Part shown: positions 13,260 through 17,521 of the stretch, piece after piece | Layout of the letters: each line of letters starts with the position of its first letter | Numbering within the stretch: the stretch's first letter is position 1 | Origin: Alphaproteobacteria bacterium | GTDB taxonomy: Bacteria > Pseudomonadota > Alphaproteobacteria > MPNO01 > UBA2964 | DNA: 64,000 nt | Assembly (NCBI GenBank): GCA_012103315.1 | Contig: WLWZ01000008.1 | Location: 62,001 to 126,000 of the forward strand | Reading direction: 5' to 3' | Translations under genes and position numbers: made by a program | Notes under the pieces: generated by a model | The model's input: only the letters and a program-made list of their open reading frames with translations | The model's database searches: none | Told to the model about the DNA's origin: nothing

Positions 13260-14000
13260 ATGGCCACTAAAATGCAGCAACTGATCAATACCGCGACCCC
13301 CTATTGGGATGCTGAGGCGGAAATTGCCAAGCGTTTTTACAAGTCAGCCAAGAAGGAACACCACGCGTTTTATCTTCGCGCGCAGCTTTGGAAAGAGCTC
13401 AACCCGGTCGACGGTTTTTTCAACGGCTTACACCGCGAACTGACACAGGCGGCCGACATGTTCCCCAAAGTCGGTAAGACCATCGACCGCCACGACTATT
13501 TATTTCTGTTGGAACAGCTGGTCTCTGAGTATAGCCACTTCGTCATGCTGGCCGATGTGCTGGAGCATGTGCAGGGCCGCAAGCTTTCCAAGCGCGACCT
13601 CAAACAACTGCCACAGGAAAAGAAGCTCGGCGATATTCGCCGCCGTTACGTGCAGAAAGGTGGTGCGATAGGCAAAGCCGCGGTTGGTATCACTGAAGGC
13701 GGCGGCACGGCCTTGTTCCGCATCGGCAAGAATCTCAAGGGCAACAAGATCAACCAGATGACCGCCACAGCCATGAAGGTGATCTGGGAAGACGAGAAAG
13801 ATCACTATATGGTGCAGGCCGACATCGCCGCCAAGATGATCAAGAACAAGGCAGATATGAAAAAGATGCAGGACGCGATGATTGATGTCAGCCTACAGCG
13901 TGTCTGGATGCGCAACGAAATGTTTCGCAGCCCGATGACAACCGCCGAGGTCGGGGCCTATATCATACGCCGCCAAGGCACCATCGCGAAACGATCATAG
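13260..14000 (+). CDS. Unrecognised all-helical protein, ferritin-like di-iron candidate
   Basis: 246 residues, strongly helical, no signal peptide. I do not recognise the family. Acidic/histidine positions match a four-helix di-iron pattern: E33 (KEHHAF), E90xxH93 (SEYSHFVM), E146 (GITEGGG) and E179xxH182 (EDEKDHYM). Two ExxH motifs are typical of ferritin-like carboxylate-bridged proteins such as rubrerythrin-like or COQ7-like enzymes. This is inference from spacing only. A GAGGA ribosome-binding site precedes the ATG. It is divergent from the flavoprotein operon with about 130 bases between them. Confidence 0.6.
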   Translation: MATKMQQLINTATPYWDAEAEIAKRFYKSAKKEHHAFYLRAQLWKELNPVDGFFNGLHRELTQAADMFPKVGKTIDRHDYLFLLEQLVSEYSHFVMLADVLEHVQGRKLSKRDLKQLPQEKKLGDIRRRYVQKGGAIGKAAVGITEGGGTALFRIGKNLKGNKINQMTATAMKVIWEDEKDHYMVQADIAAKMIKNKADMKKMQDAMIDVSLQRVWMRNEMFRSPMTTAEVGAYIIRRQGTIAKRS

Positions 14001-14061
14001 CTGCACCTTAAAACGACCACTATCGCTCGCTAACGTTTTTCCCTGATTCAAAACAGCAATC

Positions 14062-14089
14062 TTGATATAGGAACATTTTCCTTTATTAT
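14062..14089 (+). promoter_or_regulatory. Putative sigma-70 promoter of the PG-binding-like gene
   Basis: TTGATA (14062-14067), 16 bases, TATTAT (14084-14089). The SOS box begins at the next base, the usual geometry for LexA repression at the transcription start. Confidence 0.55.
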
Positions 14090-14104
14090 GTTCTTGTAAT
14101 GTTC
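14090..14104 (+). promoter_or_regulatory. Alphaproteobacterial SOS (LexA) box
   Basis: Direct repeat GTTC-TTGTAAT-GTTC, a perfect match to the GTTC-N7-GTTC operator known for LexA in alphaproteobacteria. It sits 42 bases before the start codon at 14146 and directly abuts the candidate -10 element. Confidence 0.7.
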
Positions 14105-14145
14105 TATAAAGGGCGTTTCAATTATCACGGGAAAGAGAAACGGCG

Positions 14146-15564
14146 ATGCTAATTAACCGATTAAACGGCCAGGTGGGCCAAGGGCTCGAAAATGATCCGT
14201 CAGATGTCATGACCGTTAAACACCTGCTGGAAGACACTGGTCACCTGGAGCATCCCGATGAAGGCTTTTCGCCGTTTTTTGATAAGCCCACAGAAGACGG
14301 CATCTTCAACATCCAGGATGAAAACGGCTTAAAGCTTGATGGAATACTAGGCCCTAACGGCCCGACCGAACGCACGTTGCTACACCAGACCGGTATTCTG
14401 CCACAAGAAACCGGTTTCAAGCTAACTGATCTGGACCTTACCGGACCAGTTGGTAACGGGTTGGAGAATAACAGTCGTGACGTTCAGGCCGTCGCCAACG
14501 GGTTAAAGAGCGCCGGTCTGATAAAGTTCGATAAGACACCAGTAGCGATCACCAAAGATGTCGATAACGGGCTACAAAATCTCCAGGTCGCCGAAGGGTT
14601 GGTCCCTGACGGCACGGCCTTGCCTGGCGGACCGACAGAGCATGCCTTGAAAAGGCGTGCGGCGAGGAATCTATCAAAAACACAAAAGACGGCTCTGCCA
14701 CCCCGAAATAGCGCAAGAGACAGGAGCGACCTTGAGGGTATCTCCGACGACATCGCGGAACGTGCTGCTGGAAGAGAAGCAGTAAGAGAGGCCCAAACGG
14801 ATCAACGGAATCAAATAGCCCAACCCGTTCGTGATCTGGCTGGAGAGCGAAAAGACCTCGATCAGATTTCAGATGACATTGCGGAGCAATCTAATAGGCG
14901 CGACATCTCTCGAATAACGGAAAAGCGCCGGGTCCAACAGGCGAGAAAAGCCATGCAACAACACTTACGCGATTTTCAGCAAGAAGGTCTCGCTGATGCC
15001 TTTACCAACCTGGAACATTTCTTATCCGGCAAGGGAACCCCGAAAACCTTTACCCGTGAACAGGCTCGTACCTATAAGCCGATTGCCAATGGCGAAAAGG
15101 TAAACCGGGGACAATTTAAGCGAACTTTCGTTGGGGATACCCAAAAGAAGACTGCACCCGCGCGTAAACTTAAAAAATTAGAAGATGGTGAAACGCTGCA
15201 CTTTCCCGGTAATTGGGATGCAGACCATAAAATAGCCGACTTCATCGATGATGTTGTAGGACGTAACAGGAATTTCGCTCTTGGATTTGGCAGAACGAAA
15301 TTTACGTCCAACGGTGATTTTATAGCAAAGAGAACCGGCGACCGTATCGAAATTAGCGGGACCGTCACCCACAAATGGAGTGACGACTATGATTTCCACG
15401 AAGGCCAGCCCGGTTCGGATCACGCTAAATCTCTCATCGAATTGGGCGACGCCAAAGAATTTTCGATCGCTGCTGAGTGGAAACAGAAAGTTACGGCGAC
15501 CGTCCGCGTCAAGGAAAATGGAGAGCTAGAATTTGAGAACGACAATTGGACTGATGTGAAGTAG
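14146..15564 (+). CDS. PG-binding-repeat protein with DDYD C-terminal domain; candidate SOS-controlled bacteriocin-like toxin
   Basis: 472 residues, no signal peptide. Residues ~6-83 and ~97-170 are two repeats (GLENDPSDVMTVKHLLED; GLENNSRDVQAVANGL), each ending in a GGPTEHAL-like segment, resembling peptidoglycan-binding domain 1. A charged coiled region (190-275) holds two copies of an (R/K)xDLxxISDDIAE repeat (ISDDIAE at 199-205 and 241-247). The C-terminal domain (~345-472) is beta-rich and contains SGTVTHKWSDDYDFHEG with D413, D414, Y415 and D416, which recalls the D-x-Y-D active-site core of colicin M-type lipid II hydrolases; the downstream His-Arg pair of colicin M is not evident. The gene lies behind a LexA box, as colicins do. 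The toxin role is inferred; a phage-like or endogenous wall protein is the alternative. Confidence 0.55.
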   Translation: MLINRLNGQVGQGLENDPSDVMTVKHLLEDTGHLEHPDEGFSPFFDKPTEDGIFNIQDENGLKLDGILGPNGPTERTLLHQTGILPQETGFKLTDLDLTGPVGNGLENNSRDVQAVANGLKSAGLIKFDKTPVAITKDVDNGLQNLQVAEGLVPDGTALPGGPTEHALKRRAARNLSKTQKTALPPRNSARDRSDLEGISDDIAERAAGREAVREAQTDQRNQIAQPVRDLAGERKDLDQISDDIAEQSNRRDISRITEKRRVQQARKAMQQHLRDFQQEGLADAFTNLEHFLSGKGTPKTFTREQARTYKPIANGEKVNRGQFKRTFVGDTQKKTAPARKLKKLEDGETLHFPGNWDADHKIADFIDDVVGRNRNFALGFGRTKFTSNGDFIAKRTGDRIEISGTVTHKWSDDYDFHEGQPGSDHAKSLIELGDAKEFSIAAEWKQKVTATVRVKENGELEFENDNWTDVK

Positions 15565-15565
15565 A

Positions 15566-16162
15566 ATGCCAAGAGAAAAAGTAATAGAAGTCATCGCTAA
15601 ACGGTTATTTCAGTTCGTTACCTACCCGTTACCGCGAAGCCCTCTGACCATAACGTTAACCTGCCTGATTTTAGGTTTCGTCTTCTTACCGGTATGGCTC
15701 TATTTCCCGGAATGCAAAGCATATTCTAATAACTCAATCACAATATCGGGTTGGATGGAAAAGAATTACAGAACTATTTTCCGAGGTAATCTAACCTCCT
15801 ATGGAGGAACGACCTTTTGGTCGATTGGTGGTTTTACCTTCATTCGCTTTCTTCCAATCTTCGACGGTAACGAACATTTTGATCAAGGAAGTGCTTTAAC
15901 AAACGCATCAAATAAAGCCGCCGTCCGCCTCGGCGCAGGCGATTATGACGGAGAAATGATTGACGGCAAAAGATACCACCCTCCACCGTCCATAATAAAA
16001 ATACGCAAAATGATAACCCGTTATGGCTGGGACAGTGACTGTGACGCCATGCGCGCAATTATGATGGGAGTGAGACCTCGCGGATTAACCAACGGAACAT
16101 GGAAACCGGAAGAAGAATATAGGCGCAAACCTCCAGTCAAAGAGCCCGTAAAACTCCGGTGA
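15566..16162 (+). CDS. Single-pass membrane protein, possible immunity or lysis partner
   Basis: 198 residues, family not recognised. One membrane segment near residues 27-47 (LTITLTCLILGFVFLPVWLY), then a ~150-residue soluble domain that is probably periplasmic, with three cysteines outside the membrane helix and a proline/lysine-rich tail. The ATG lies one base after the stop of the preceding SOS-controlled gene, so the two are co-transcribed and probably coupled. Topology with an N-terminal anchor and outward domain resembles that of the colicin M immunity protein, though it is longer. Function is inferred from context only. Confidence 0.55.
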   Translation: MPREKVIEVIAKRLFQFVTYPLPRSPLTITLTCLILGFVFLPVWLYFPECKAYSNNSITISGWMEKNYRTIFRGNLTSYGGTTFWSIGGFTFIRFLPIFDGNEHFDQGSALTNASNKAAVRLGAGDYDGEMIDGKRYHPPPSIIKIRKMITRYGWDSDCDAMRAIMMGVRPRGLTNGTWKPEEEYRRKPPVKEPVKLR

Positions 16163-16300
16163 GATACTCCATATGAATTCTTCTCCCACGGGGAGTCCTG
16201 TGATGAGACCTGCTACCAACCGGCAACAAGAGGTTACGGCAACGGAATCTTCCGGCCGCTTGCGATCAAAAACTGGGAGCTCTAAGAGTAATTACTACGG

Positions 16301-17521
16301 CTATGTAGCCTGGCTTTCCAGTGCCGCGACACCGGGCAGTTCTTTGCCTTCTAGCCATTCGAGGAATGCGCCACCCGCCGTTGAAACATAAGAGAAGTCA
16401 TCCAGCGCATCTGCCGCTGCCAATGCCGCAACAGTATCACCACCACCGGCGACGGAACGTAGCTTGCCCTCCGCTGACAGTTTCGCAGCCGCCTGCGCCA
16501 CAATGTTCGTACCCTTATCGAAGGGTCGGATTTCGAACGCGCCCAGTGGGCCATTCCACAATACGGTTTTGCAATCTTTAAGGCTTTCGGCCAGCGCTTG
16601 AGCCGTACCCTCCCCAACATCCAAAATCATCGTGTCGGCTCGAACTGCGGCAATCGGCACAGTTTCACAAGGAGCGCCAGCCTCGAACTTTTCTGAAATC
16701 ACGACGTCCGATGGCAACACAACTTCACAACCCACTTCATCGGCGCTGGCCATCACGGCCCTTGCGGTATCTGCCATGTCACTTTCACAGAGCGATGCCC
16801 CAACATCGGTACCAAGCGCATAAAGAAACGTATTGGCCATTGCGCCACCGATAACCAGCCGGTCGACCTTGGCAACCAGATTGCTCAAGACATCCAGCTT
16901 GGTCGAAACCTTGGCACCGCCAACGACTGCCAAAACCGGCCTCTCCGGATCACCAAGAGCAACTTCAAGCGCTTCCAGCTCGGCCTGCATCGATCGCCCT
17001 GCCGCTGACGGCAGCACCCGTGCTATGCCATCCGTCGACGCATGCGCGCGGTGAGCCGCCGAGAACGCATCATTGACGAACGCATCGCCCAGCAACGCGA
17101 GTGCTTTGACAAACACGTCGTCATTGGCTTCTTCACCCGCATGAAAGCGGAGGTTTTCAAGCAATGCGATGCCACCTTCCGGCAGAGCATTTATTGCGAC
17201 TTCCGACGCGTCGCCAATACAATCTTCGACAAAGACAACCTCACGCCCGCCAAGGGCAGCTTTCAGTGGGCCAACATGTGCCTTGAGCGACATTTCGGGA
17301 ACGATTTTACCTTTGGGTCGGTCAAAGTGTGACATCACCACGACTTTGCAGCCACGATCCGAAAGTTCCAAAATTGTCGGGGCCAACCGGTCTATACGGG
17401 TAGCCTCTGTCACAACACCATCCCGCATCGGGACATTGAGATCACCCCTTATTAGGACACGGGTACCCGCTGCCTGCTCATTTAGAGCAGGCAGGGTATC
17501 GAGCGTTTCAAAACGCGCCAT
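16301..17521 (-). CDS. pgk: Phosphoglycerate kinase
   Basis: Glycolytic/Calvin enzyme: 1,3-bisphosphoglycerate + ADP to 3-phosphoglycerate + ATP. 406 residues, normal. [12 protein letters not shown] at the N-terminus, SHFDRPKG, the nucleotide-binding [12 protein letters not shown] and the C-terminal [10 protein letters not shown] are visible. Third gene of the tkt-gap-pgk operon, 24 bases after gap. Confidence 0.98.

Follow-up and report, generated by a model that had tools for sequence, protein, structure and literature searches.

Layout of the cassette and its operator

The window, by which we mean the whole stretch of 64,000 nucleotides analysed here, carries two adjacent genes on the plus strand that appear to encode a toxin and its membrane-anchored partner. 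They are preceded by a predicted sigma-70-like promoter, TTGATA-16-TATTAT (14062-14089, plus strand), identified as a consensus match by direct reading, with TTGATA at 14062-14067, TATTAT at 14084-14089 and a 16-bp spacer in between. Abutting the -10 element is the LexA operator ATGTTCTTGTAATGTTC (14088-14104, plus strand), an exact consensus match whose GTTC-N7-GTTC core, GTTCTTGTAATGTTC, lies at 14090-14104, directly behind TATTAT. The toxin gene (14146-15564, plus strand) is an open reading frame for a protein of 472 residues, composed of a double PG-binding-like N-terminal module, a charged linker and a C-terminal colicin M-like domain, with relatives of both the module and the domain found elsewhere. 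One base after its stop, at 15566, starts the probable immunity gene (15566-16162, plus strand), which encodes a protein of 198 residues. No hydrophobic segment was found in the 472-residue protein, while the 198-residue protein has a single one near its N-terminus (residues 27-45), followed by a C-terminal domain that is probably periplasmic. In all these respects (promoter, box, both reading frames, the one-base gap, and a cytosolic protein followed by a single-pass one), the locus is as the preliminary description had it.

The two genes form an inserted cassette (14001-16300) that sits between a gene for a 246-residue protein (13260-14000) and pgk (16301-17521, minus strand). The 2.3 kb separating these flanking genes contain the promoter, the toxin gene and the partner gene only. 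In five relatives (G009, G010, G011, G015 and G016), the 246-residue gene and pgk are direct neighbors and the cassette is missing; in another (G017), a truncated toxin N-terminus lies beside the 246-residue gene, with a degenerate box, GTTCCTGAATTGTTT, and without the partner. The base composition of the cassette is unremarkable, and its surroundings in the window are pgk, gap, tkt and metabolic genes, without phage genes. This comparison of sequences marks the toxin/partner pair as a 2.3-kb insertion that separates two genes adjacent in relatives.

The preliminary description had also taken the bare GTTC-N7-GTTC box to be the alphaproteobacterial LexA operator. The bare pattern does not exceed chance, either in the window (3 seen versus 2.5 expected) or genome-wide (91 matches versus 117 for a reversed-pattern control), and we therefore dropped it as evidence and judged the site on its extended sequence. 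The experimentally determined LexA consensus of Caulobacter is (T/A)TGTTC(N6)TGTTC (PMC13384398); ATGTTCTTGTAATGTTC fits it exactly and is the sole such match in the window. When we went through the complete list of 91 core matches and their flanks, the extended consensus was present at only 8 of them in the 4.1-Mb genome, the window site included. Five others precede recA, imuA (followed by imuB and dnaE2), nrdJ, comM and a radical-SAM repair-like gene, which from its translation is of the spore-photoproduct-lyase-like kind; of the remaining two, one lies within a coding frame and one is of unclear status. A near-match to the consensus lies upstream of lexA, which was identified via PF01726, the other SOS neighbors being named from our own reading of their translations rather than by family search. 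A weight matrix built from the lexA, recA and imuA sites only ranked the window site 8th of the 91, with a clear score gap below it, and placed the nrdJ, comM and radical-SAM sites 3rd, 5th and 6th; the nrdJ box differs from that of the window by one base. Boxes of equal quality are thus few in the genome and mostly found at known SOS genes, so that the assignment holds for the extended site and not for the box alone. By this sequence match, the window operon carries a LexA-type operator at its promoter, adjoining the -10 element, a position where the repressor would block initiation.

A shared N-terminal module and a variable membrane partner

Residues 1-177 of the toxin (14146-14676, plus strand) hold two PG-binding-like repeats and are common to other toxins with different C-termini. 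In the 472-residue protein itself, the Pfam PG_binding_1 model reached only the first repeat, under its curated cut-off (20.7 versus 23 bits). We nevertheless consider both repeats real, because the paralogue and the relatives with the same module score two stretches (E about 1e-10). Relatives of residues 1-177, some with one repeat only, were found in 14 of the 385 alphaproteobacterial genomes sampled, and these include a paralogue in the same genome as the window (C22). Behind this module we found C-termini that are colicin M-like (the window, L010, L012 and L014), nuclease-like (the C22 paralogue, L003, L046 and L054), lysozyme-like (L048 and L055), a small Cys-containing domain (L007 and L053) or a coiled coil (L047 and L059), the names of those that are not colicin M-like being our own reading of the sequences. 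Moreover, a second copy of the C22 paralogue's C-terminal domain stands alone behind that gene. This combination of a common N-terminal module with alternative C-termini is, as far as sequences can tell, a polymorphic-toxin architecture.

Several observations were made around the related toxins. At L039:8318-8686 and L090:6142-6510, a free-standing gene of 122 residues resembles the C-terminal domain of the nuclease-like toxin in front of it and looks like an orphan toxin cassette. A single protein at L107:1495-2499 (G342) joins a PG-binding-like module, a PGEEFNCRCWAEF stretch that recalls phage head morphogenesis (MuF-type) proteins, and a colicin M-like end. DUF1877 genes precede C22-type toxins in three genomes (L003, L004 and L006), where an immunity role for them is possible. 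Between DUF1877 and the C22-type toxin gene lies a conserved strong promoter, TTGACA-TAATAAT (L039:6636-6816 in the genome of the window, with equivalents in L004 and L003), and two terminator-like hairpins stand between this promoter and the toxin start codon, an arrangement that suggests control of the toxin by attenuation or antitermination.

Perfect LexA consensus sites were also found near other toxins carrying the module. In G324, such a site lies 257 bp upstream of the start of the toxin reading frame, and in G015 and G016, which we counted as one event, it precedes a small gene and DUF1877 that in turn precede related toxins. Since a genome holds about eight consensus sites, chance is unlikely to account for each of these, although the boxes stand at some distance from the toxin genes. 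The site in G015 and G016 is placed directly before the small gene, which is conserved and encodes about 90 residues (L090 near 9172 and L091 near 5519). A further box at the C22 paralogue was not counted: it overlaps the start codon, is off consensus and is not conserved in relatives.

As for the partner, a membrane-protein gene adjoins the colicin M-like domain in most complete homologue loci, with varying sequence and topology. Single-pass proteins of 149-195 residues follow or flank the homologous toxin domains in L012, L013 and L015 and, twice, in L017; the neighbor in L010 is similar to these, its segment falling under the hydropathy cut-off. Multi-pass membrane proteins are found beside the domain in L011, L018, L106 and L107, and no obvious partner was seen at L014, L016 and L108. 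The 198-residue protein of the window has no convincing homologue within its own family of genomes, and its AF2 model is poor (pLDDT 52). Toxins of the colicin M family are known to be accompanied by a mixture of membrane-associated immunity proteins (PMC5821083), and with membrane-protein genes adjoining the domain in most complete loci, the 198-residue protein is a probable immunity protein. At L106:27-2701 (G126), a colicin M-like gene is found among genes for three related multi-pass membrane proteins in tandem, which may form an amplified family of immunity proteins.

The colicin M-like domain and its active site

For residues 273-472 (14962-15561, plus strand), AF2 yielded a confident model (pLDDT 86, pTM 0.80). 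A plain Foldseek search of the PDB with this model returned no significant match. When VIA-align was used to re-align the 1000 Foldseek candidates, chains of the colicin M family made up 11 of the 14 best PDB rows (Z 5.4-7.8), aligned over most of the domain: pectocins M1 and M2 scored 7.8, PaeM 6.6, colicin M 6.2 and syringacin M 6.1. As values below 8 fall in a range in which common arrangements can score, and as plain Foldseek found nothing, the case rests on the pile-up of a single family together with independent profile evidence. The modelled fold is thus of the colicin M catalytic-domain type on evidence that is supportive rather than conclusive.

The profile evidence is as follows. The Pfam model PF14859 (Colicin_M) matched neither the window protein nor, at E 10, a single one of 11 homologues of the domain, nor anything else in the genome, while true family members were matched strongly. 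A scan of 398 genomes of the phylum with the same model gave no match, not even to its controls, and was set aside. Searching the PDB with a profile of the four closest members only, colicin M was absent from the results, and a broader alignment was needed: with an 11-member profile, colicin M accounted for five of the six matches (E about 0.7), and with three bridging members added, five colicin M sequences topped the PDB (hmmsearch, E 0.07-0.12). When compared by hhalign with an alignment of four authentic colicin M proteins, all of them PF14859 members, the score was 37.9 (P 7.6e-5; probability 62%, not over 90%), versus at most 19.3 for 60 column shuffles and 17.2 for the reversed profile. 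This alignment puts both the L-x-H-F-L-x-G-x-G and the D-x-Y-D-F stretches in register, and one bridging member (L106) carries both F-H-Y-L-x-G-x-G and D-x-Y-D-F. Taken together, common ancestry of residues 273-472 with the colicin M domain is well supported, though not certain.

Relatives of the domain were found in 8 of 385 genomes, its own included, by single-sequence search and in 11 of 372 by profile. Outside the Alphaproteobacteria, a relative occurs in the actinomycete Nonomuraea; no homologue was found among phages, viral contigs or plasmids except for this one, on a chromosome-size record filed under plasmids. In Nonomuraea gerenzanensis, the colicin M-like domain (L020:3914-4567), with H-x-W-x-D-x-Y-D, lies in a region of the record without annotated genes.

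The best-conserved stretch of the domain reads G-D-x-I-x-x-x-G-x-V-x-H-x-W-x-D-x-Y-D-F. In the window protein it includes the motif H409-K-W-S-D413-D-Y415-D416 (15370-15393, plus strand), with DDYD at residues 413-416, and alignment sets D413-D-Y415-D416 in register with D226-K-Y-D229 of colicin M, matching the catalytic D226-x-Y228-D229. In colicin M, alanine at D226, Y228, D229, H235 or R236 abolishes activity (PMC8469651). Most homologues retain the D, Y and D, yet the x5-H-R half of the DXYDX5HR signature is absent from all 14 aligned members, namely the window protein and 13 relatives. At the fourth position ahead of the core, the window family usually carries a His (H409), where colicin M members have R, K or N, and H409 might take over a catalytic role. 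Following this line, we tentatively consider that the domain may represent a branch of its own within the colicin M superfamily, reaching from Alphaproteobacteria to Actinomycetota, in which a basic residue at -4 replaces the His-Arg pair and which is carried on an undescribed SOS-controlled polymorphic-toxin system with a double PG-binding-like module; we put the odds of this at a little less than even.

Proposed mechanism, alternatives and known systems

We propose that the locus is probably a bacteriocin-like toxin/immunity cassette under SOS control, whose toxin is made together with a membrane-anchored protector and uses a diverged colicin M-type domain against an undecaprenyl-linked target, likely lipid II. 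With LexA bound to the operator abutting the -10 element, the operon would be off. Upon DNA damage, RecA would trigger LexA cleavage, and the cytosolic toxin, which has no signal sequence, would be made along with its protector. Once released by lysis or another export route, the toxin may be brought to the envelope of a competitor, or retained there, by its two PG-binding-like repeats, and the C-terminal domain would then use its D413-x-Y415-D416 core to attack an undecaprenyl-linked target in the periplasm, most likely lipid II, bringing wall synthesis to a stop. In the producer, the 198-residue protein would sit in the inner membrane and block the domain at its periplasmic face. Sequence or structure comparison backs the operator, the polymorphic-toxin architecture, the fold and motif of the domain, the neighboring membrane protein and the insertion. 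Induction and the cleavage of lipid II are inferred, as are immunity, release, import and prey. The weak link of the proposal is delivery, as we recognized neither a lysis gene nor a TonB box or receptor domain for the toxin of the cassette; colicin M itself is without an identified lysis protein (PMC8469651).

This proposal largely preserves the preliminary description, which had seen two PG-binding-like repeats, a D-x-Y-D core like that of colicin M, and either a toxin with a membrane-anchored partner or an endogenous wall-damage response. The repeats stand on the same-module relatives, and of the colicin M signature the D-x-Y-D half holds while the H-R half does not. Modelling agrees, with the C-terminal domain folding most like colicin M-type domains, and so does the homologue search for the pair, which returned relatives of the toxin domain with an adjacent membrane-protein gene in most complete loci; the reading as a toxin with its partner is thereby supported.

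Given that the active site lacks its H-R half, an SOS-controlled toxin/immunity pair could instead use its diverged domain on another undecaprenyl-linked or lipid substrate, or work without catalysis. We regard this as a serious contender, if somewhat doubtful. The loss of both residues from every aligned member and the family's own conserved His at -4 speak for it, as do reports that colicin M members with altered motifs have doubtful activity and that a catalytically dead pectocin M1 domain is still able to lyse cells (PMC5821083). On the other hand, conservation within the domain is highest in the D-x-Y-D core and in the G-x-V-x-H strand before it, an argument for the same type of catalysis, and the basic residue at -4 could stand in for the missing group.

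Less likely than either this or the lipid II-directed bacteriocin is an effector delivered by contact or by a particle (T6SS, tailocin, GTA or prophage cargo), with the N-terminal module as a loading or lysis-linked part. Several module proteins do lie in phage-like settings, one beside tail-fibre-like genes (L086), one after tail genes and a SleB-like hydrolase (L084) and one near a scaffold-like gene (L092); in addition, the colicin M fold is known among T6SS effectors (DUF3289, PMC11148199), and the T6SS effector 9jdi is a structural neighbor of the domain (VIA-align, Z 5.7). However, the window cassette has no phage neighbors, and the T6SS sheath gene PF05943 (VipB/TssC), the sole component searched, had no match in the 98.4% complete assembly, in contrast to the E. 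coli control.

We consider it improbable that the protein serves an endogenous response to DNA or wall damage, binding the cell's own wall with the membrane protein as a partner or anchor rather than as immunity. LexA control, the PG-binding-like repeats and the lack of a signal peptide or visible release route would suit such a role, but a housekeeping response would be expected to be conserved, and this mobile cassette is patchy and inserted (missing at the site in five relatives and truncated in one), its C-termini recombine and exist as an orphan cassette, and its partner genes differ strongly between loci. It is equally improbable that the domain is unrelated to colicin M and that its DDYD motif and fold are coincidental, for despite the lack of a Pfam or significant Foldseek match and Z values below 8, 11 of the 14 top-ranking structural alignments are with members of a single family and cover most of the domain, independent sequence profiles align the same residues at twice the score of the best shuffle, and L106 holds both conserved stretches.

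Returning to the proposed SOS-controlled toxin/immunity cassette, those colicin M-type toxins that have been characterized are from gamma- and beta-proteobacteria (PMC5277000, PMC5821083), and no paper in the literature searched names colicin M together with Alphaproteobacteria. Nor did we find in these papers an earlier description from this class of an SOS-switched colicin M-like toxin/immunity pair, the toxin of which probably destroys a cell-wall precursor. If our reading is true, lipid II-targeting bacteriocin chemistry reaches a large environmental class, the alphaproteobacterial SOS operator is tied to interbacterial antagonism, and a colicin M active site lacking the residue pair thought essential offers a natural test case for a catalytic mechanism yet to be worked out. 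The same reading would bring to light a polymorphic-toxin module in which automatic annotation sees a generic PG-binding domain at most.

Among known systems, the closest likeness is to the colicin M family (Pfam PF14859), which comprises colicin M, pectocins M1 and M2, PaeM, syringacin M, PflM and the burkhocins. The window protein shares with it the fold of the C-terminal domain, the D-x-Y-D-F core that follows a G-x-V strand, with an L-x-H-Y/F-x-x-G-x-G stretch likewise placed upstream of it, and a modular toxin with a membrane-associated, here probable, immunity protein of variable type; with colicin M itself, it shares a predicted SOS control. It differs in that its domain is missed by the PF14859 model and lacks x5-H-R, in its double PG-binding-like N-terminal module in place of receptor or translocation domains, and in its occurrence in Alphaproteobacteria and one actinomycete, with a LexA site of the alphaproteobacterial type. 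The T6SS-linked DUF3289/DUF943 effector/immunity pair (PMC11148199) likewise places a colicin M-type fold outside classical bacteriocins and pairs it with an immunity protein, but the window genome has no T6SS sheath match. A colicin M-fold polymorphic toxin with BamE-like immunity, from a paper on the lipocone (PMC12419801), also combines a toxin domain with a fast-evolving, membrane-anchored immunity protein; there, however, a cystatin-like domain is fused N-terminally to it and the proteins bear a lipobox. The window domain possibly overlaps with that toxin, the two being set apart here by description and not by sequences. Finally, the cassette resembles polymorphic toxin systems at large (PMC3482391), some of which have PG-binding domains, in its common N-terminal module, swapped C-terminal toxin domains, orphan cassette and probable downstream immunity gene, and differs from them in its SOS operator and its particular double PG-binding-like module.
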